Under the pieces are notes generated by a model. The model saw only the letters and a list, made by a program, of their open reading frames with translations. It was not told the origin of the DNA and did no database searches. A DNA stretch of 64,000 bases. Source: Limnochorda sp. L945t (GTDB lineage: Bacteria > Bacillota > Limnochordia > Limnochordales > Geochordaceae). A program made the position numbers and the translations under genes. The stretch lies in assembly GCF_035593305.1 (NCBI RefSeq), contig NZ_CP141615.1, positions 1,054,001-1,118,000 of the forward strand, in the 5' to 3' direction. Shown here in pieces: positions 10,014 through 22,825 of the stretch. The number at the start of each line of letters is the position of its first letter. The first letter of the stretch is position 1.

Positions 10014-10616
10014 GTGGCTGCGTTGTTCGAAGGCAAGCGCATCGGTTGGGCGCTCGCTGCATCCCACTGCTCGTTCGAGGAGGTGCTTCCGTCCATCGAA
10101 CAGCTGGTGGCGCGAGGAGCCCAGGTGTTTCCCATCCTGTCGGAGCATGCGGTCGACACGCGCTTCGGCACCGTCGAGGAATGGGTGGCCCGGCTGCAGC
10201 AAGCCACCGGGCGCCGCGTGATGCGGTCCATCGTGGAGACGGAGCCGGTGGGACCCAAGAAGCTGCTGGATGCGCTCGTGATCGCCCCGTGCACCGGTAC
10301 CACGCTCGCCAAGCTGGCGCTGGCGATCAACGACTCGGCGGTCCTGATGGCGGCCAAGGCCACCTTGCGAAACGGCCGCCCGGTCGTGCTGGCCATCTCC
10401 ACCAACGACGCGCTGGGGGCCAACGCGAAGAACCTGGGCCTCCTCCTGTCCATGAAGAACGTCTACATGGTACCCTTCGGGCAGGACAATCCCGAAGAGA
10501 AGCCAACGTCCATGGTCGCGGACTTCTCCCTGATCCTGCCCGCGCTGGAAGCGGCCCTGGAGGGCCGGCAGATCCAGCCGATGATCATCGACAGGGCGCG
10601 GCGGCAAGTGCGCTGA
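10014..10616 (+). CDS. dpaB: Dipicolinate synthase subunit B (SpoVFB)
   Basis: 200 residues, a flavoprotein-like fold: KRIGWALAASHCSFEEV at the N-terminus, ALVIAPCTGTTLAKLALAI in the middle and VYMVPFGQDNPEEKP near the end, all typical of SpoVFB. It is the partner of DpaA in dipicolinate synthesis. GTG 10014 follows gaggaaag with good spacing. Presence of both subunits is strong evidence that the organism makes dipicolinate-containing endospores. Confidence 0.95.
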   Translation: MAALFEGKRIGWALAASHCSFEEVLPSIEQLVARGAQVFPILSEHAVDTRFGTVEEWVARLQQATGRRVMRSIVETEPVGPKKLLDALVIAPCTGTTLAKLALAINDSAVLMAAKATLRNGRPVVLAISTNDALGANAKNLGLLLSMKNVYMVPFGQDNPEEKPTSMVADFSLILPALEAALEGRQIQPMIIDRARRQVR

Positions 10617-10677
10617 AGGACGTAACGAGCACGCCCGGGCGGTCGACGGTCCGGTGCGGCGGGAGGCGAAAGGCGGC

Positions 10678-11709
10678 ATGGCGCAAGGCGTCAAAGTGGG
10701 CGTGGTGGGGGCCACCGGTGCGGTGGGACAGGAGTTCTTGAAGATCCTGGAGGAGCGCCGCTGGAAGCTCGGCGATCTCCGGCTGTTCGCCTCGGAGCGC
10801 TCGGCGGGCAAGACGGTGCGGGTGCTGGGAGAGACCTTTTCGATCGAGGCGGCCACCCCCTCCCGGATGGAGGGGCTCGACCTGCTCTTCTTCTCGGCCG
10901 GCGCCTCGGTGAGCCGAGAGCTGGCCCCCCAGCTCGCCCGCAAGGGAGCCGTGGTGATCGACAACTCCAGCGCCTTTCGCATGGATCCCGACGTGCCCCT
11001 GGTGGTGCCGGAGGTCAACGGCCAGGACGCCTTCCGGCACCGGGGCATCGTCGCCAACCCTAACTGCTCGACCATCATCATGGCGGTGCCCCTGTGGCCA
11101 CTGCACCGTGCCGCCGGGATCCGGAGGGTGGTCGTCTCCACGTACCAGGCGGTGTCGGGCGCGGGTGCCCGGGCGATGGCCGAGCTCGAGGAGGAGCTGC
11201 GGGCGCACGTCCGGGGCGAGACGTACGAGCCGGCGGTGTTGCCTTACGCCTCCGCGGAGCGGCACTACCCCATCGCGTTCAACGTGATCCCCCAGGTCGA
11301 CCGGTTCGAGGAGGCGGGCTACACCAAAGAGGAGTGGAAGATGGTGCGGGAGACGCGCAAGATCTTCCACGAACCGGAGCTTGCCGTCACCGCGACCACC
11401 GTCAGGGTCCCCGTCCTGCGCAGCCACTCCGAATCGATCAACGTGGAGCTCGCCCGGCCGCTGTCGGCCGAGGAGGCGCGGGCCCTCCTGCGGGAGGCCC
11501 CCGGCGTCGAGGTGGTCGACGACCCCGAGCGCCAGCGCTACCCGATGCCGCTCGAGTGGAGCGGCAAGGACGCCGTGGCGGTGGGCCGCATCCGGGAGGA
11601 CCTGTCCCGGCCCGGGGCGCTCAACCTCTGGGCCGTGGGCGACCAGATCCGCAAGGGCGCGGCGCTCAACGCGGTGCAGATCGCCCAGGTCCTGGGCTTG
11701 CTCGCTTAG
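10678..11709 (+). CDS. asd: Aspartate-semialdehyde dehydrogenase
   Basis: 343 residues. NADP-binding GATGAVGQEF is near the N-terminus, the catalytic Cys130 is in ANPNCSTI, and the C-terminal catalytic His region (VPVLRSHSESINVEL) is present. It makes aspartate semialdehyde, the common precursor of lysine/diaminopimelate, threonine and methionine. ATG 10678 follows gggagg; a GTG 24 bases upstream is less likely. Gene order dpaB-asd-dapG-dapA is the classical spore-former arrangement. Confidence 0.95.
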   Translation: MAQGVKVGVVGATGAVGQEFLKILEERRWKLGDLRLFASERSAGKTVRVLGETFSIEAATPSRMEGLDLLFFSAGASVSRELAPQLARKGAVVIDNSSAFRMDPDVPLVVPEVNGQDAFRHRGIVANPNCSTIIMAVPLWPLHRAAGIRRVVVSTYQAVSGAGARAMAELEEELRAHVRGETYEPAVLPYASAERHYPIAFNVIPQVDRFEEAGYTKEEWKMVRETRKIFHEPELAVTATTVRVPVLRSHSESINVELARPLSAEEARALLREAPGVEVVDDPERQRYPMPLEWSGKDAVAVGRIREDLSRPGALNLWAVGDQIRKGAALNAVQIAQVLGLLA

Positions 11710-15658: not shown

Positions 15659-16483
15659 GTGTTTTGCTGGAGCCAACAGGGGGCGGACCCATCGGACGGC
15701 CCCGAGCAGGAGGACGGTCAGGCGCCGGACGGGGAGCGCGGGATCCCTGCGGTGGCGCCCCCGGCACCCTCCAACCCGCAGGCGGCGCCTCCCCTCGAGT
15801 ACCTGCGGCAGCTGGGGCAGCTCGCGGCGGTCCCGTCGGGGGATCTGGGCATCCACGTCCTGCCCATCATCGGGCAGGTGGAAGGGCACGTGAGCCTGCC
15901 CCCCAAGAACAAGACCACCCGCTACGAGCACATCATCCCCCAGCTCGTGGCCGTCGAACAGAGCCCCCGGGTCCGGGGCCTGCTCATCGTGCTCAACACC
16001 GTGGGGGGCGACATCGAGGCCGGGCTTGCCATCGCGGAGATGGTACGAACCCTCTCCAAGCCTTCGGTCTCGGTCGTGCTGGGCGGCGGGCACTCCATCG
16101 GCATCCCGATCGCGGTGGCGGCCGACCACAGCCTGATCGCCGAGACCGCCACCGTCACGGTGCACCCGGTGCGCCTGTCGGGCGTGCTGGTGGGCATGCC
16201 GCAGGCCTACGAGTACCTCGACAAGATGCAGGACCGGATCATCCGCTTCATCGTCGACAACTCGCGGATCAGCGAGGAGAAGCTGCGAGAGCTCATGTTC
16301 CGCACGGGTGACCTCGTGCGGGACGTCGGCACCGTGCTCGTCGGGCGCGAGGCAGTCCACGCCGGGATCATCGACGAGGTAGGAGGGCTTTCGCAAGCCC
16401 TGGCGCGCCTGAAGGAGCTGGTCCGGGCCCGGGAGCAGGCGGCCCGGGCGGCCGGCGACGGAGGGGCTGCAGCCTCCCCGTGA
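15659..16483 (+). CDS. tepA: ClpP-fold protease TepA/YmfB
   Basis: 274 residues. A Pro/Ala-rich, probably disordered N-terminus (about 1-50) precedes a ClpP-like crotonase-fold domain with [18 protein letters not shown], the nucleophile segment GGGHSIG and the VTVHPVR His segment. This is the TepA family, which has been linked in B. subtilis to degradation of small spore proteins and to protein export. The GTG start has GGGAGGA nine bases upstream. As in B. subtilis, it follows RNase J and is followed by a ylzJ-like gene. Confidence 0.9.
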
Positions 16484-16716
16484 TGGTCTCCGACGTCTAC
16501 TACACCGTGCTTCCCGTCAGTCTCGAGGCACCTGCGGGCGACGGCGGCCCGTTCGCCGCGCAGCGGCATGAAGTGCTGATCGGCCACTGGGGCGGCGTAC
16601 CGGTCTGGGTCGAGCTGCTGCACCACGCCGACGGGCGGTGGCGGGTCCAGCGCCTCATCACCACCGCCGCCGAGCTCTACCTCTGGCCTTCCCTCTTTCC
16701 CGGCACCCCTTGGTGA
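16480..16716 (+). CDS. YlzJ-like small protein
   Basis: 78 residues, starting [12 protein letters not shown] after a short lead and ending in YLWPSLFPG. The pattern matches the small YlzJ family, whose gene follows tepA and precedes spoIIIE in B. subtilis. Function is unknown. The GTG at 16480 overlaps the tepA stop (GTGA); ATG 16483 is an alternative. The expected ftsK/spoIIIE gene does not follow; a sensor kinase does, marking a break in conserved order. Confidence 0.7.
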
Positions 16717-16722
16717 AGCCCA

Positions 16723-16751
16723 TCACAATCCTGTTATCTGCGTGTTATAAT
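16723..16751 (+). promoter_or_regulatory. Candidate promoter of the sensor-kinase operon with 11-bp direct repeat
   Basis: TATAAT at 16746-16751 with TCACAA 17 bases upstream (16723-16728, three of six matches to TTGACA). TGTTAT occurs at 16732 and again at 16743, exactly 11 bp apart and overlapping the -10 box, which could be a response-regulator site. The kinase start is 37 bases downstream. Confidence 0.4.
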
Positions 16752-16787: not shown

Positions 16788-18458
16788 ATGAGACCGTGGG
16801 ATCGGCTGGCGGTGCGCCTGCTGGGCAGCGTAGCGGCCGTGGCCCTGTTCATGAGCCTGGCGAGCTTCGGCTGGGACGCATACCGCCAGCGCGTCCAGGC
16901 GGAGCTGACGCTGACCGAGCGGGCGCGGGCCGTCACGAAGCAATTCCTGGCGGTGCGGTCCTTCGTCGCTCAGGCGGAGACGGAGAGGGTGGCCGTCAAC
17001 CCTGCGGGGTTCCATCACCTGGATCCGGTCGTCGTGGCCCGGGTGGTGGGAGAGATCTTCGGTTCCAGTTCGGCGGCCCGGGTCCGGGAGGTATGGATGG
17101 GCTCCGAGCGGGCATCCCACGTGCCCGACCCGGTCGAGGAGCAGGCGCTCAGGCGCTTCTCCGCCGACCCGGCCGCCACGGAGTTCGCCGCGGTGCTGCC
17201 CGACGGTGGGCACGGGCCCCGGGTCTTCCGGTACGTCGCGCCCATCCATCTCGAGCAAAGCTGCCTGACGTGCCACCAGCAAAGTGCCCTCAGCACCGGG
17301 CACGATCGGCCGCCGGCCGTGGGCGACCTCATGGGGGCGTTGAGCATCCAGGTGCCCATCGAGGAGTTCGAGGCGGGCGTCGCCTCCTCCATCCGCAGCC
17401 GGCTGCGCTTCACGCTCCTGCTCACGGCGCTGTCGCTTTCGGTGCTGGCGGTGTTGCTGCGCCGCCAGGTCACGTCTCCCCTGGGGCAGCTCACCGCAAT
17501 GGCGTCCCGCTTCGCTACGGGCGACCTCACGCCCGCTCCCCTGCCGAAGGGCGCGGTCGGAGAGACGGCCGTGCTCGCCTCGGTCATGAACTCCATGGCC
17601 GGAGCCTTGCGGGAGCTGTACGCCGACCTCGAGGCCAAGGTCGAGGAGCGGACCCGCAAGTTGACCGAGGCCAACGCGCGCCTGCAGGAAAAGCAGGTCG
17701 AGCTCGAACGGGCCCAAAAGCTGCAGTCGGAGTTCCTGGCCACCGTGTCGCACGAGCTGCGTACCCCGCTCACCTCCATCCTGGCCTTCACGGAGCTGTT
17801 GAGCGAGGAGGGGGCGACCGCGGACAGCGACCAGGTGCGCGAGTACCTGACCGACATCCGGGAGTGTGCGCAGCGGCTGTACGAGCAGATCAACGATCTG
17901 CTCGACCTGGCCCGCATCGAGGCCGGGAGGATGCAGCTCGACCGCACGGTCTTCGACGTACGCTTGGCCGTCGAGGCCACCTTGCGGCGCATCGAGCCCA
18001 TGGCTGCTCGCAAGGGCCTCGAAGTGCGCCGGCCGGCGCAGGCGCAGCCGGTTTGGGTGGAGGCCGACCGCGTCCGGGTGGAGCAGGTCCTCATGAACCT
18101 GCTCTCCAACGCCGTGAAATTCACCCCTCGCGGCCACGTGGCGGTGGAGCTCGAGGAACCTGGCCCTGAGGAGCCCATGGTGCGGGTGAAGGTCCGGGAT
18201 ACGGGCATCGGCATCCGGCCAGAGCACCACGGCATCATCTTCGAGAAGTTCCGGCAGGTGGACAGCTCGGCCAGCCGGGAATATCCGGGCTCGGGGCTGG
18301 GGCTGGCGCTGGCCCGGCACCTGGTGGAGATGCACGGCGGGCGCATCTGGGTCGATTCGGAGCTCGGCAAGGGCAGCACGTTCACCTTCACGCTGCCCGC
18401 CCCGCCACGCGCCCCGGTCGGCGCGAGGCCGCAAGCAACACCGGAAGGCCGGAGGTGA
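16788..18458 (+). CDS. Membrane sensor histidine kinase with c-type haem motif (DUF3365/Tll0287-like)
   Basis: 556 residues. TM1 is about 8-25 and an extracytoplasmic sensor domain about 26-205. TM2 is about 208-226, followed by HAMP, a coiled coil, HisKA with His322 in VSHELRTP and an ATPase domain ([25 protein letters not shown]). The sensor contains CLTCH (Cys159, Cys162, His163), a covalent haem c attachment motif in the context typical of Tll0287-like domains, so redox, oxygen or NO sensing is likely. Its response regulator follows after 10 bases. ATG 16788 is chosen; GTG 16776 is possible. It occupies the place of ftsK/spoIIIE in the conserved order. Haem binding is inferred from the motif. 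Confidence 0.88.
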
Positions 18459-18468
18459 TCCGTTCGAC

Positions 18469-19275
18469 GTGGACTCCGAACGCATACTCGTCGTCGACGA
18501 CGAACCGCACATCCTCAAGGCGGTGAGCCACCGCCTCGAGCGTTCGGGCTACCAGGTGGAGGTAGCGGCGGACGGGGAAGAGGCCCTGGAGAAGTTCGAC
18601 CGTTTCCGGCCCGACCTGGTCGTGCTCGACCTGATGCTGCCGCGCCTCGACGGCTACGAGGTGTGCCACGCCATCCGGGAACGGTCCAACACGCCCATCA
18701 TCATCCTCTCGGCCCGCAGCGAGGAGCCCGATCGCCTGACCGGCTTCTGGTTGGGAGCGGACGACTACCTTACCAAGCCCTTCAGCCTCGCGGAACTGGT
18801 GTTGAGGATCCAGGCGGTGCTGCGCCGGGCCCGCCCCGATCCCGGCGTCGAACGCGCAGGCGCCTCCGCTGCGGGCGAGCGGCCCGACACAGGAGCGACC
18901 GAGGGCGGCGCGCCGGCAGCGGGCACGGAGCAGGTGCTCCACTTCGAGGGGCTCACGATTGACCGGCAGTGCCGCATGGTGTGGCGGCGGGGGCAGCCGG
19001 TGGATCTCACCGCCAGGGAGTTCGACCTCTTGTGGCTGCTCGCGAGCCACCCCATGGTGGTCTTCACCCGGGACCAGATCCTCGATCGAGTGTGGCAAAG
19101 CGATTACGCGGGGGATCTCGCCAACGTGACGGTCTGCATCAGCCGGTTGCGGGAAAAGCTCGAGGAGGATCCCCTGGCCCCGCAGTTCATCCAGACGGTG
19201 CGCGGGGTGGGCTACCGGTTCAGGGCCCGGCCCATCCGCCCGGGGTCGCCCGCGCCTCAAGTGCCGGCCGTGTGA
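18469..19275 (+). CDS. OmpR/PhoB-family response regulator
   Basis: 268 residues. The receiver has the acidic pair Asp10-Asp11, phospho-acceptor Asp54 (VVLDLMLP) and the conserved Lys in DDYLTKPF. A Gly/Ala-rich linker (about 125-160) joins a winged-helix DNA-binding domain (TAREFDLLWLLASHP, ISRLREKL, VRGVGYRF). An excellent GGAGGTGAT lies nine bases before GTG 18469. It is the obvious partner of the upstream haem-type kinase. The array of 11-bp-spaced GCAA repeats just downstream, ahead of the iron-sulfur protein gene, is the natural candidate for its binding site. Confidence 0.92.
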   Translation: MDSERILVVDDEPHILKAVSHRLERSGYQVEVAADGEEALEKFDRFRPDLVVLDLMLPRLDGYEVCHAIRERSNTPIIILSARSEEPDRLTGFWLGADDYLTKPFSLAELVLRIQAVLRRARPDPGVERAGASAAGERPDTGATEGGAPAAGTEQVLHFEGLTIDRQCRMVWRRGQPVDLTAREFDLLWLLASHPMVVFTRDQILDRVWQSDYAGDLANVTVCISRLREKLEEDPLAPQFIQTVRGVGYRFRARPIRPGSPAPQVPAV

Positions 19276-19371
19276 GGGGCCACCCCACGGCGGCGGCACG
19301 GCCTCGGGGCCGCCCGGCGCACTTCTCCTTGCCCCTCGCCGCCGGTGGCTTTGCCGTGGCGTTAGCTTTCT

Positions 19372-19475
19372 GCAATGTTCCGGCAAACCACGTGCAAGTG
19401 CAGCGCAGGGTAACGGCAAGCCTCTATTCCTAGCATTGTAAGCGGACAGCAAGAGTCTTACAGGGCTCTTGCAGC
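19372..19475 (+). repeat. Array of 11-bp-phased GCAAN direct repeats (candidate regulator operator)
   Basis: GCA(A/G)N elements start at 19372, 19383, 19394, 19405 and 19416, all exactly 11 bp apart. In the same register are GTAAG at 19438, GCAAG at 19449, ACAGG at 19460 and GCAGC at 19471; only the 19427 slot is blank. OmpR/PhoB-family regulators typically bind tandem half-sites with 11-bp periodicity. The array fills the 224-base gap between the response-regulator gene and the HybA-like gene, ending 25 bases before its start. It is visible directly; the binding function is inferred. Confidence 0.6.
19449..19472. repeat. Inverted repeat within the operator-like array
   Basis: GCAAGAG (19449-19455) and CTCTTGC (19466-19472) form a perfect 7-bp inverted repeat with a 10-base loop. 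It places the GCAAG element on both strands close to the start of the HybA-like gene and could be an RNA hairpin or a dyad operator. Confidence 0.4.
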
Positions 19476-19499
19476 GCGGCCGACAGGGAGGGACGGGGC

Positions 19500-20438
19500 T
19501 TGCCCACCGAGGTGCGCGGCGCGAGGACGTGTCCCCTCTTGAGCCGGCGGGCCCTGCTGGCCGGCGGGGCCGGGGCCGTGGCGGCGGGCCTTTCGGGGAG
19601 CCTCGCCGTGCCGGCGCTCGCTTCAGATCCGGCGACGGGCGGCGACGGCAGCTTCGGGATGCTGGTCGACCTCACGGAGTGCGTCGGATGCCGCAGCTGC
19701 GTCTACGCCTGCCAGGAGGCCAACGGGTGGACCGGTGACCCGGAGCGCCCGGCGATCGACGGCGATCAGTGGACGGCGGTCCGGGAGGTGGAACTGCCGG
19801 GAGACCCGGGCCACGTCCGCTACGTACGGACCCAGTGTTTTCACTGCCTCGACCCGGCTTGCGCTTCGGCCTGCCCCGTGGGGGCCCTGCACAAGACCCC
19901 CGAGGGCCCCGTGGTCTATGACGCCGGGCGCTGTATCGGCTGCCGGTACTGCATGGTCGCCTGCCCGTTCCACATCCCCCGCTACCAGTGGGAAACCCCG
20001 CTGCCCCTCGTGGCCAAGTGCATCATGTGCGCCCCGCGTCTCGAGCGGGGCGAGTCGCCCGCCTGCGCCGAGGCGTGCCCGACGGGGGCGACCACCTTTG
20101 GACGGCGCTCCGAGCTCATCGCCGTCGCGAGGAAGCGCATCGCCGATCACCCTGACCGGTACGTGCCCCGCATCTACGGGTTGACCGAAGCGGGGGGCAC
20201 GTCGTGGCTGTACCTGTCCGACGTGCCGTTCGAAGAGCTGGGCTTCGCCTCGGTGGGCAGCACGCCCCCGCCTCAGAAGACCCAGGCGGTCATGGAGAAG
20301 GTGCCCGTGGTCGCCGTCGGCGTGGCCGCTCTCATGGCCGTCGTGCGGTGGTGGGAGGGCGCTCGAGAGAGCCGGGACGAGGCCCGGGACGCCCGGGAGC
20401 GGGCCGGCACACCATCCGGAAAGGAGCCCGGAGCATGA
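19500..20438 (+). CDS. Tat-exported four-cluster ferredoxin-like protein, HybA-like
   Basis: 312 residues. A twin-arginine signal (SRRALLAGG, cleavage after PALA) precedes an iron-sulfur domain with CVGCRSCVYAC, CFHCLDPACASACP, CIGCRYCMVACP and CIMC plus CAEACP groups, enough for four [4Fe-4S] clusters. A hydrophobic C-terminal helix (about 262-280) resembles the anchor of HybA. In Hyb, Dsr and Qrc complexes such subunits carry electrons between a periplasmic catalytic subunit and a NrfD/HybB membrane protein. Here no catalytic subunit is adjacent. TTG 19500 follows cagggaggga. The stop overlaps the next start (ATGA). Confidence 0.9.
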   Translation: MPTEVRGARTCPLLSRRALLAGGAGAVAAGLSGSLAVPALASDPATGGDGSFGMLVDLTECVGCRSCVYACQEANGWTGDPERPAIDGDQWTAVREVELPGDPGHVRYVRTQCFHCLDPACASACPVGALHKTPEGPVVYDAGRCIGCRYCMVACPFHIPRYQWETPLPLVAKCIMCAPRLERGESPACAEACPTGATTFGRRSELIAVARKRIADHPDRYVPRIYGLTEAGGTSWLYLSDVPFEELGFASVGSTPPPQKTQAVMEKVPVVAVGVAALMAVVRWWEGARESRDEARDARERAGTPSGKEPGA

Positions 20439-21661
20439 AAGCGGAGGCGCGGTGGATTCCCGGCAGGTCGCGGGAGCGCTCGACGACCGAGAAGCTCGTC
20501 GAGCTCGGCTGGGGGCGCCTGGCGCTTTGGGCGCTGGCCCTGACCGGAGGCCTGGCCATGGTCTACCGGCTCGTCCGGGGCCTGGGGGCCACGACCCATC
20601 TCAACGACGCCTGGCCCTGGGGATGGTGGATCGCCTTCGACGTCATGGGCGGCGTCGCCCTGGCGGCCGGGGCATTCGTCGTGGCGGCCTGGGTGCACCT
20701 GTTCGGCAAGCATCGTTATGCGCCGCTGGCCCGCCCGGCGGTCTTGACGGGGTTTCTCGGATACCTGATGGTGATCGCCGGCCTGTTGATGGACCTGGGG
20801 CGGCCGTACCGTATCTGGCACCCGATCGTGATGTGGCAGCCCCATTCGGTGATGTTCGAGGTGGCCTGGTGCGTGATGGTCTACACGACGGTGCTGGCCT
20901 TCGAATTCAGCCCCGTCGCGCTGGAGGGACTGGGGTGGCACCGAGCATGCCGGGCCGTACGCCGGGCGCTGGTTCCGATGGTCATCCTGGGGGTGGTGTG
21001 CTCGGTGCTGCACCAGTCGTCGCTGGGCAGCCTGCTGCTCATCGCCACGTACCGCATGGATCCCCTCTGGTACTCCCCGCTGTTGCCCGTGCTCTTCTTC
21101 GTCTCGGCCGTGGCGGCCGGGCTCGGCATGATCCAGCTCGAAGCCGCGGCGGCAAGCCGGGTCTACCGTCACCGGGTCGAGCCGGAGCTCGTCGAGGGGC
21201 TGGCCCGGGGCATGGCCTGGATGCTCGCGCTGTACCTGGCGCTGCGGCTGGGCGACTGGGTGAGCCGGGGCCAGGGGCCCTGGACGCGGCCGGTATCGCT
21301 GGAGAGCGTGGCGGCCGGACTGGAGGTCCTCGTGGGCGCAGCGTTGCCGGCCCTGGTCATGAGCCGTAAGAGCTGGAGGCAAAGCGCCCGGGCCCGCCTC
21401 GTGGCGGCCGGGTTGGCCGTGGTGGGCGTCATAGCCAACCGCATCGACTCGGTGCTGGTCTCCATGCGGGCGGGCGCCGGCGCCGCGTATGTGCCTTCCT
21501 TGCTGGAGCTGTGGGTTACCGGAGCCATCGTGGCTGCGGGCGTGCTGGGCTACGACTGGGTAGCCCGGCACTGGCCGCTGTTCGTCGAGGAGCCGGAAGC
21601 GCTGCCAGGGGAGGCGAGAGCTCAGGAAAGCCGCCGGCCGGTAGGGGTGACGGCGTCATGA
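20435..21661 (+). CDS. HybB/NrfD-like polytopic membrane protein
   Basis: 408 residues, very hydrophobic, with about ten predicted transmembrane helices. The segment WPWGWWIAFDVMGGVALAAG, the later VLHQSSLGSLLLIA and the C-terminal ELWVTGAIVAAG are typical of HybB-type quinone-reactive membrane subunits (NrfD superfamily). It likely exchanges electrons between the quinone pool and the HybA-like protein encoded upstream, with which it overlaps by four bases. ATG 20435 has aaggagcccggagc upstream. Direction of electron flow and partner enzyme are unknown. Confidence 0.9.
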   Translation: MKAEARWIPGRSRERSTTEKLVELGWGRLALWALALTGGLAMVYRLVRGLGATTHLNDAWPWGWWIAFDVMGGVALAAGAFVVAAWVHLFGKHRYAPLARPAVLTGFLGYLMVIAGLLMDLGRPYRIWHPIVMWQPHSVMFEVAWCVMVYTTVLAFEFSPVALEGLGWHRACRAVRRALVPMVILGVVCSVLHQSSLGSLLLIATYRMDPLWYSPLLPVLFFVSAVAAGLGMIQLEAAAASRVYRHRVEPELVEGLARGMAWMLALYLALRLGDWVSRGQGPWTRPVSLESVAAGLEVLVGAALPALVMSRKSWRQSARARLVAAGLAVVGVIANRIDSVLVSMRAGAGAAYVPSLLELWVTGAIVAAGVLGYDWVARHWPLFVEEPEALPGEARAQESRRPVGVTAS

Positions 21662-22569
21662 CGGGGGCGTCGGGGCCGGCGCCGGCCCAGGAGGTTTCCT
21701 GGGGGCCATCCCCACGGGTGCTGCTGCTGGGATTCCGGCTCGAAGAGGCGAGCGAGTTCGTGCCGCTGCTCTCCCGGTTGGGCTTCCGGATCGAGATCGG
21801 GGCCGAAGGGAGACTGGACGTCGCCCGAGGCGTACCCGGCGTGCGCGACATCCCGGGAGCCCGAGCCGAGCGGATGGGATTCGACGTCTGCCCCGCGGAA
21901 GCGGACCTGGCCCTGGTCTATCTCGAGCAGCCAGAGTCGCAGGCGCCGCCGTTGATCGACTGGCTGTCCCGGAGGTGGGGCATGCCGGTGGTCGTGCTCT
22001 CCGACGACGCCCGCTGCTCGGCCCGCATCGCGACCCTGCGGGCGGGGGCCGAGGATTACGTGTGCCGGCCCTTTTCGGCATCAGAGCTGGCGCTGCGGCT
22101 GCGGGCCATTTACCGGCGCACCGGGCCACGCCGGGCAGGATGCCCCCAGGGCGCGCCCGGCCGGCCCGGGACGGGCCCCGGCACGGCCCGGGTGGGCGAC
22201 CTGGTGCTCGACCGCACCAGCCGGCTCGCCTTCCTCGGCGGGAGGGAGATTCCCCTCACGGGACGGGAGTTCGACCTGTTATGGCTGCTCGCCTCGCACC
22301 CCGGGCGAGTCTTCAGCCGGGAGGAGCTGCTGCTGCGCCTGTGGGGCGACGAGGAGGCCGCCTCCGAAGAGAGCGTGACGGTGCTCATCAGCCGGCTGCG
22401 CGCGAAGCTGCGGATGGCGGGCTCGTGCTGCACCCTCCGGATCCGGGCGCTGTGGGGCGTGGGCTACCGGCTCGAGAGCGAGCGGGGCGCGCTCCGGAGG
22501 GCTGCCGTGCCGGATCACCGGGCCGCCGTGCCCGCGCCAAAGCGGCCGGCTCTGCTCCGGGCACAATAG
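21658..22569 (+). CDS. Winged-helix regulator with degenerate (pseudo) receiver domain
   Basis: 303 residues. The C-terminal domain is a clear OmpR/PhoB winged helix (TGREFDLLWLLASHP, LISRLRAKL, GVGYRLE) and closely resembles the regulator encoded at 18469-19275. The N-terminal domain has the receiver outline, but the acidic pair is replaced (VLLLGFRLEEA), the phospho-acceptor position is Tyr88 (LVYLEQP) and the switch Lys is Arg (EDYVCRPF). It is therefore unlikely to be controlled by aspartyl phosphorylation. The ATG overlaps the HybB-like stop (ATGA), so it is co-translated with the redox module. A signal other than phosphate, or dimerisation with the partner regulator, is inferred. Confidence 0.85.
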   Translation: MTGASGPAPAQEVSWGPSPRVLLLGFRLEEASEFVPLLSRLGFRIEIGAEGRLDVARGVPGVRDIPGARAERMGFDVCPAEADLALVYLEQPESQAPPLIDWLSRRWGMPVVVLSDDARCSARIATLRAGAEDYVCRPFSASELALRLRAIYRRTGPRRAGCPQGAPGRPGTGPGTARVGDLVLDRTSRLAFLGGREIPLTGREFDLLWLLASHPGRVFSREELLLRLWGDEEAASEESVTVLISRLRAKLRMAGSCCTLRIRALWGVGYRLESERGALRRAAVPDHRAAVPAPKRPALLRAQ

Positions 22570-22591
22570 GGCCGGATGGAGGGAACCGCCC

Positions 22592-22825
22592 GTGCCACGT
22601 GAAGGGGCCCGAGCGCGCCCGACGCGGCGCCGCCGGCGCTATCCCAGGGACGCCTACAGCACGTCGGGCCTGGACGACGCCCATTTCCACCAGGAGGCAG
22701 GCAAGGATCCGCTCGACCTCGATCCCCTGTCGCACTGGCAGGAGCTGGAGCGGGCAGCGGAGTCGCAGCTACGGCGCAAACCGGGCAGCCGGGACAACGT
22801 CCCGCCTCGCGACGAAAAAGACTGA
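22592..22825 (+). CDS. Small highly charged hypothetical protein
   Basis: 77 residues, Arg-rich at the N-terminus (RRRRRYPRD) and acidic later, with no recognisable domain or membrane segment. GTG 22592 has a ggaggg about eight bases upstream, and the gene follows the pseudo-receiver regulator after 22 bases, which supports expression. It converges on the glycosyltransferase gene with only five bases between stops. Reality is likely but not certain. Confidence 0.45.
   Translation: MPREGARARPTRRRRRYPRDAYSTSGLDDAHFHQEAGKDPLDLDPLSHWQELERAAESQLRRKPGSRDNVPPRDEKD

Follow-up and report, generated by a model that had tools for sequence, protein, structure and literature searches.

Gene content of the island

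The stretch analysed here, referred to as the window, comprises 64,000 nucleotides (C1:1054001-1118000) of the 3.31-Mb single-contig genome of Limnochorda sp. L945t (G000). Its NiFe hydrogenase, its RuBisCO and its closeness to the metagenome-assembled genome Bu05 agree with what has been published on Carboxydochorda subterranea L945 (PMC11456536), the Limnochordaceae species to which the genome probably belongs. The window carries an island of five genes in which a histidine kinase with a predicted haem-c sensor and an OmpR/PhoB-type response regulator (RR1) are followed by the electron-transfer proteins HybA and HybB and by a second regulator (RR2). The island is a new combination of known parts and a member of a recurrent association of haem kinases with orphan HybA-HybB (HybAB) pairs. 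Its features are listed below with the basis of each assignment.

16746-16751, + strand: TATAAT -10 box, predicted kinase promoter (sequence comparison)
16788-18458, + strand: histidine kinase (Pfam, alignment)
18469-19275, + strand: RR1, OmpR/PhoB-type response regulator (Pfam, alignment)
19372-19419, + strand: five GCAA repeats with an 11-bp period, candidate RR1 site (pattern and shuffle tests)
19437-19462, no strand assigned: inverted repeat TGTAAG-N14-CTTACA (comparison of intergenic sequences)
19500-20438, + strand: HybA/HmcB-like Tat-exported protein with four [4Fe-4S] clusters (TTG start, profile matches)
20435-21661, + strand: HybB/HmcC-like quinone membrane protein of the NrfD family (PF03916, NCBIfam)
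21658-22569, + strand: RR2, OmpR/PhoB-type DNA-binding protein with a pseudo-receiver (Pfam, alignment)

The window was compared with the Limnochordaceae metagenome-assembled genome Bu05, with G002, which belongs to another genus than the window, with G001 from a sister genus and with the Limnochorda-like genome G004. According to Pfam, the kinase consists of two membrane helices flanking an extracytoplasmic Tll0287/sCache_heme sensor, followed by HAMP, HisKA and HATPase_c domains, the sensor matching PF11845 with an E-value of 1.3e-18 and 68.3 bits (gathering score 24.1). Residues 159-163 read CLTCH and conform to the CXXCH haem-c motif. In an alignment of the window protein with four Limnochordales relatives, the sensor cysteines are restricted to this CLTCH/CXXCH pair and the axial cysteine of Tll0287 is absent. 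A signalling haem-Cache protein without the axial cysteine has been reported to bind nitric oxide (NO) tightly, and a stand-alone Cys-ligated one looks redox-type, the NO-binding data coming from one Pseudomonas protein (PMC12889525). Since the axial cysteine is missing and the domain is fused to HAMP and kinase domains, the window sensor groups with the NO-binding signalling type (PMC12889525). A reading of the DNA made earlier from its letters alone (the sequence-only reading) had described a haem-c sensor kinase in a redox-sensing island; the haem-motif kinase stands, and its sensor is modified to a haem-Cache domain of the type that has been linked to NO binding instead of redox (PMC12889525). 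The kinase shares with sCache_heme (Tll0287/DUF3365) kinases the CXXCH-bearing PF11845 sensor, the two membrane helices, HAMP and the kinase domains, but differs in its linkage to an orphan HybAB module and in occurring in a Bacillota-type lineage, where the domain has been called rare or absent (PMC12889525). A search of solved structures with phmmer, using either the kinase sensor alone or HybB, gave zero matches. At the position equivalent to the predicted kinase promoter, G001, G002 and G004 have TATAAT or TACAAT. RR1 consists of Response_reg and Trans_reg_C domains, and its phosphorylation pocket is intact.

HybA starts at a TTG codon preceded by a Shine-Dalgarno-like run, GGGAGGGA. It has an SRRALL twin-arginine translocation (Tat) motif, 16 conserved cysteines corresponding to four 4Fe-4S clusters and a C-terminal hydrophobic membrane helix. 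HybB matched NrfD (PF03916) as well as the NCBIfam models HmcC (8e-83) and HybB (3e-82), neither match reaching the curated cut-off. The pair as a whole scored similarly as HmcB/HmcC and as HybA/HybB, in every case under the curated cut-offs, and it is therefore regarded as an orphan branch of the family rather than a typed member. With 29% identity to E. coli HybB, the window HybB retains D69, R100, Y110, D120, S138, E142, Y150, E157, H193, E297 and R336, positions equal to functional or conserved residues of the E. coli protein, some of which mutation has shown to matter there or in QrcD (PMC8076601, PMC13059093). As these quinone and proton-path residues are kept, HybB is not a decayed protein. 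ATGA overlaps join hybA to hybB (20435-20438) and hybB to the RR2 gene (21658-21661).

Near the island there was no sign of a gene for a multihaem cytochrome, a hydrogenase or a molybdopterin protein, and no further CXXCH-bearing gene was called between 10 and 30 kb of the window; the HmcA that lies beside HmcB/HmcC in Hmc has no counterpart here. Nor does the pair belong to a Hydrogenase-2 (HybOABC) cluster, since the NiFe large subunit of G000 is encoded about 1.2 Mb from it and comes with a cytochrome b of its own (PF01292). A hydrogenase partner adjoining HybAB was ruled out for the window and its near relatives. The four-cluster iron-sulfur protein and the NrfD-like membrane subunit with quinone and proton residues are shared with HmcBC/HybAB/CbcTU-type modules, from which the window pair differs by having regulators in its operon and no adjacent multihaem cytochrome, hydrogenase or molybdoenzyme.

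RR2 has a clear DNA-binding domain (Trans_reg_C, 2e-23, 82.7 bits; cut-off 26.2) and a receiver that, at 20.9 bits, falls under the Response_reg cut-off of 30.2. When aligned, the phosphorylation pocket of the window protein has GF in place of the acidic pair DD, tyrosine in place of the phospho-aspartate and arginine in place of the switch lysine. The pair is likewise lost in Bu05 and G002, and among the three proteins the phospho-aspartate has become Tyr or Trp and the lysine Arg. The positional counterpart in G004 has a canonical receiver in the alignment, and most simply the receiver would have decayed in Limnochordaceae once the five-gene unit existed. The second regulator had been called degenerate in the sequence-only reading, which holds for its ruined receiver and not for its origin, the Limnochorda counterpart being canonical. 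RR1 and RR2 have a common recognition-helix core, VTVx(I/V)SRLRxK(L/V), which is absent from the three other readable OmpR-type regulators of G000; on this ground they may reasonably be expected to use a shared or related operator.

The inventory given by the sequence-only reading is otherwise borne out by these analyses. It had named a CLTCH-bearing kinase with its PhoB-type regulator, a Tat-exported four-cluster protein with a HybB-like quinone protein, ATGA junctions linking HybA, HybB and RR2, a pseudo-receiver in the second regulator and the absence of a catalytic subunit from the island.

Conservation of the five-gene unit

All five genes are kept at the same site in Bu05, whose HybB is 98% identical to that of the window, and in G002, and they occur at another site in G004. 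The five-gene set is found in three genera, and the regulators are conserved with HybAB; their absence, which the sequence-only reading had named as a ground for refutation, did not arise. When 61 genomes of the class were surveyed, PF11845 was present in five, HybB in five and both in four, an overlap with a chance of about 5e-5 under random assignment by our own count, uncorrected for kinship. Histidine kinases of the Tll0287 type are confined to the four genomes that share HybB, and the two other PF11845 proteins resemble GGDEF and chemotaxis proteins by sequence.

The claim that the island takes the place of ftsK/spoIIIE in the conserved order had to be abandoned, since relatives in the order likewise show no ftsK/spoIIIE after the clpP-like and ylzJ-like genes; displacement of ftsK was rejected from the tepA-ylzJ site in five order relatives, based on gene calls with no FtsK profile run. 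In the window, the ClpP-like gene and the kinase are separated by a small reading frame (16480-16716), which we take to be the YlzJ-like gene.

GCAA arrays and a putative second operator

The GCAA regulon was derived from one pattern scan over four genomes, in which only arrays of at least four repeats were used. Arrays upstream of hybA contain five repeats in the window, five in Bu05, six in G002 and four in G004, and cover three genera. In each of these four cases, the array score was reached by 0 of 1000 dinucleotide shuffles. A period of 11 alone scores, periods of 8-10 and 12-14 being at background. When 291 kb of Limnochordales DNA was shuffled 30 times, about 8.7 Mb in all, an array of at least four repeats never arose.

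The scan of G000 returned three such arrays, located at the island, at a second HybA-HybB operon and at an S41 peptidase gene. The second-operon array has six repeats (L101 11211-11269) and lies just upstream of HybA (10280-11194, minus strand). This second orphan operon (C1:161029-163193; L101 9054-11194) stands between CoA-transferase/acyl-CoA genes and transporters and is without two-component genes. The S41/PDZ peptidase array was found in the three Limnochordaceae genomes G000, G001 and G002 (L163 9553-9589, L164 2335-2371, L165 5873-5909). Matches with three repeats in G000 numbered 12 versus 8 for a reversed-pattern control and were disregarded, and a G004 array at 3219266, at a B12-binding gene and with one mismatch, was excluded as a conserved target.

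As G001 keeps RR1 and the S41 peptidase array but has no RR2 at the island site, the array is most simply an RR1 site, and the repeats at 19372-19419 are probably the binding site of RR1. An RR1-type architecture with an 11-bp-phased operator-like array is shared with OmpR/PhoB systems that use tandem 11-bp repeats, which are generally known; the window differs in having a second, dead-receiver regulator co-translated with the membrane protein whose expression it would control. The half-sites and spacing of TGTAAG-N14-CTTACA are the same in Bu05 and G002, and its spacer sequence has diverged in G002; this inverted repeat is probably a second operator.

HybAB beside haem kinases in other phyla

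A set of 80 HybB loci was fetched solely by similarity to the window HybB, with kinases disregarded, and downstream kinases were counted at the 66 loci outside Limnochordia with at least 1.5 kb of downstream sequence. A same-strand histidine kinase with haem motifs lies within 1.6 kb downstream in 55 of the 66, a count that includes near copies, so that independent events are fewer; 54 of the 55 have one CXXCH and one CX4CH, and in 28 the kinase is no more than 20 bp from HybB. The kinase-linked loci belong to Bacteroidota, Ignavibacteriota, Acidobacteriota including Geothrix, and others. Along the HybB tree, the kinase label changes 5 times; shuffled labels would be expected to give 16.2 changes.

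In a 34-row alignment of the cross-phylum sensor, Met61, CXXCH, CX4CH and His166 are invariant, and its predicted structure (mean predicted local distance difference test score, pLDDT, 79) matched Cache folds in a structure search, the haem-c domains GSU0935 and GSU0582 among them. In 7/7 genomes, it was the HybAB-linked kinase that matched the CXXCH+CX4CH sensor best. Next at these loci comes an NtrC-type regulator followed by an archaemetzincin, or a receiver-GCV_H fusion. A third kinase type, combining a CXXCH-bearing PF21563 sensor with GAF and HisKA_3, adjoins HybAB in L009 and L052, and in L009 it is accompanied by a LuxR-type regulator. Orphan HybAB is, as judged from motifs and domains, joined to predicted haem-c kinases of three architectures.

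The sequence-only reading had asked whether relatives place a standard catalytic subunit next to the pair. They do so solely in two distant cases, with a NiFe hydrogenase in L065 and a molybdopterin oxidoreductase in L079. HybA has a Tat signal in the island copies of Limnochordales, as it does in L007, L009, L052 and L065; in most of the cross-phylum clade it has none and may face the cytoplasm. The literature searched, which excludes most subscription journals, yielded no description of orphan HybAB accompanied by haem kinases.

Interpretation

In our view the island probably combines a haem-sensing two-component system with an electron-transfer module under its control. The kinase would carry covalent haem c in its extracytoplasmic Cache domain and report the state of the haem, NO-bound or redox, to RR1. 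Phosphorylated RR1 would then bind the GCAA array that precedes hybA with its 11-bp phasing, as well as the similar one upstream of the second HybAB operon, and so set the level of HybA-HybB. HybAB itself would be functional and linked to menaquinone, a module of HmcBC/HybAB type with no resident catalytic subunit, through which the quinone pool would exchange electrons with a partner outside the cytoplasm, possibly the haem of the kinase. RR2 would act as a phosphorylation-independent paralogue, co-translated with HybB, and is probably a fixed modulator at the same or a similar site. The best-supported regulatory statement is that the haem-Cache kinase and RR1 would control HybAB operons through the GCAA arrays, with RR2 modulating. 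The likeness to redox two-component systems of the RegB/ArcB type is that the kinase reports respiratory state to a response regulator; as is generally known, those systems sense quinone or thiol state directly, whereas the window has an extracytoplasmic haem-c sensor beside a separate quinone module.

Several observations weigh against this interpretation. In G001 the kinase and RR1 stand at the tepA site (L121) with no HybA-HybB-RR2 there; given the full unit in G004, this absence is most simply a loss, and RR2 tracks HybAB instead of the kinase. The HybAB of G001 showed no array, and as the kinase and RR1 of this genome do not lie beside HybAB either, they have other targets. The conserved array at the S41 peptidase gene is oriented opposite to that gene. 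The ratio of non-synonymous to synonymous substitution rates (dN/dS) of RR2 between the window and Bu05 is 0.63, from few changes, and alone gives no sign of strong selection. In the Bacteroidota/Acidobacteriota clade HybA is mostly without a Tat signal and the regulators are of other types, so that the mechanism may differ although the linkage recurs.

Four other accounts were weighed. The kinase could be an NO sensor and HybAB its response genes, an electron helper under nitrosative or denitrification conditions with no electron transfer from HybA to the kinase; we hold this as a tentative possibility. CLTCH contains the sole cysteines of the sensor, as in the tightly NO-binding type (PMC12889525), and Carboxydochorda has nitric-oxide and nitrous-oxide reductases, in a paper whose keywords also include didermic cell wall (PMC11456536). 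However, no recognised NO gene is found at any of the three G000 arrays, the NO data in print are limited to the one Pseudomonas protein, and nothing in the account explains a response of an orphan quinone module to NO. In favour of redox sensing, the kinases recurrently have a quinone module as partner. The sequence-only reading had also suggested that the module may serve a remote enzyme. In the form weighed here, HybAB would give such an enzyme, most probably the NiFe hydrogenase, an additional route to the quinone pool, and the two-component system would co-regulate both; this appears rather unlikely. The same three genomes out of 21, G000, G002 and G004, possess the five-gene set, a complete NiFe hydrogenase and RuBisCO alike, and the CbiM nickel-uptake gene of G002, which precedes the NiFe hydrogenase, has a GCAA array of five repeats upstream. 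Against this, the co-occurrence is based on three related genomes, no array was found at the G000 or G004 hydrogenase loci examined, and the G000 enzyme, of group 1d (PMC11456536), already has its cytochrome b.

Direct wiring, in which the kinase would read the quinone pool by receiving menaquinol electrons on its haem by way of HybB and then HybA, would make orphan HybAB an electron feeder setting the redox state of the sensor haem in haem-c Cache kinases, and we judge it unlikely in either form. The island HybA is Tat-exported and hence on the same membrane side as the kinase haem, three haem-Cache kinase architectures adjoin orphan HybAB in different lineages, and the sensor matched HybAB-linked kinases best in every genome compared; most cross-phylum HybA proteins, however, would by their missing Tat signal lie on the side opposite the haem, and the kinase of G001 persists without a neighbouring HybAB. 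Such wiring would be possible in the window and would not generalise to most of the clade. The sequence-only reading had proposed a sensor or signalling branch of the quinone pool, of which genetic linkage and probable regulation stand, direct electron transfer between HybA and the haem of the kinase being a hypothesis. It is very improbable that these genes came together by accident and share no function: the blocks are separable, as G001 demonstrates, but the same five genes occur at two sites in different families, with common arrays and many cases in other phyla.

The preferred reading, an electron-transfer module under the control of a haem-sensing system, bears on proteins whose role is unassigned. 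Orphan HybAB/HmcBC is usually annotated as a hydrogenase or respiratory subunit, and its linkage to kinases offers a testable role in signalling or in haem-gated respiration; haem-Cache kinases in turn gain a candidate physiological partner. The recurrence of a haem sensor with an enzyme-less quinone pair across unrelated phyla suggests an undescribed coupling of respiration to gene control, of which the window provides a case from a subsurface bacterium. The lineage is a cultivated one, the operator-like arrays are defined, the HybAB-RR2 block is naturally absent from a sister genus, and a Limnochorda-like genome holds an intact counterpart of the decayed RR2. If HybAB does feed electrons to the kinases, the feeders would form a widespread, previously undescribed class of quinone-pool sensors, arising with at least three kinase architectures.

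Other features of HybAB loci

Membrane-anchored GCV_H-like proteins flank HybAB in L020, L024, L028, L045 and many other loci, and are fused to a receiver in Geothrix; by eye, most of these copies are without the lipoyl lysine. HybB frames with three CXXCH motifs occur in L040, L042, L045, L051 and L011, the tail of the L045 protein being like a C-terminal triheme cytochrome c7. In G001 (L098 1591-2505, 8317-8703) the HybA adjacent to HybB is without its iron-sulfur part, and a full-length HybA with a near-identical N-terminus lies about 7 kb upstream. The formate-dehydrogenase-like molybdopterin subunit beside HybAB in L079 (6248-9238) is split near its N-terminus, possibly by a selenocysteine codon.

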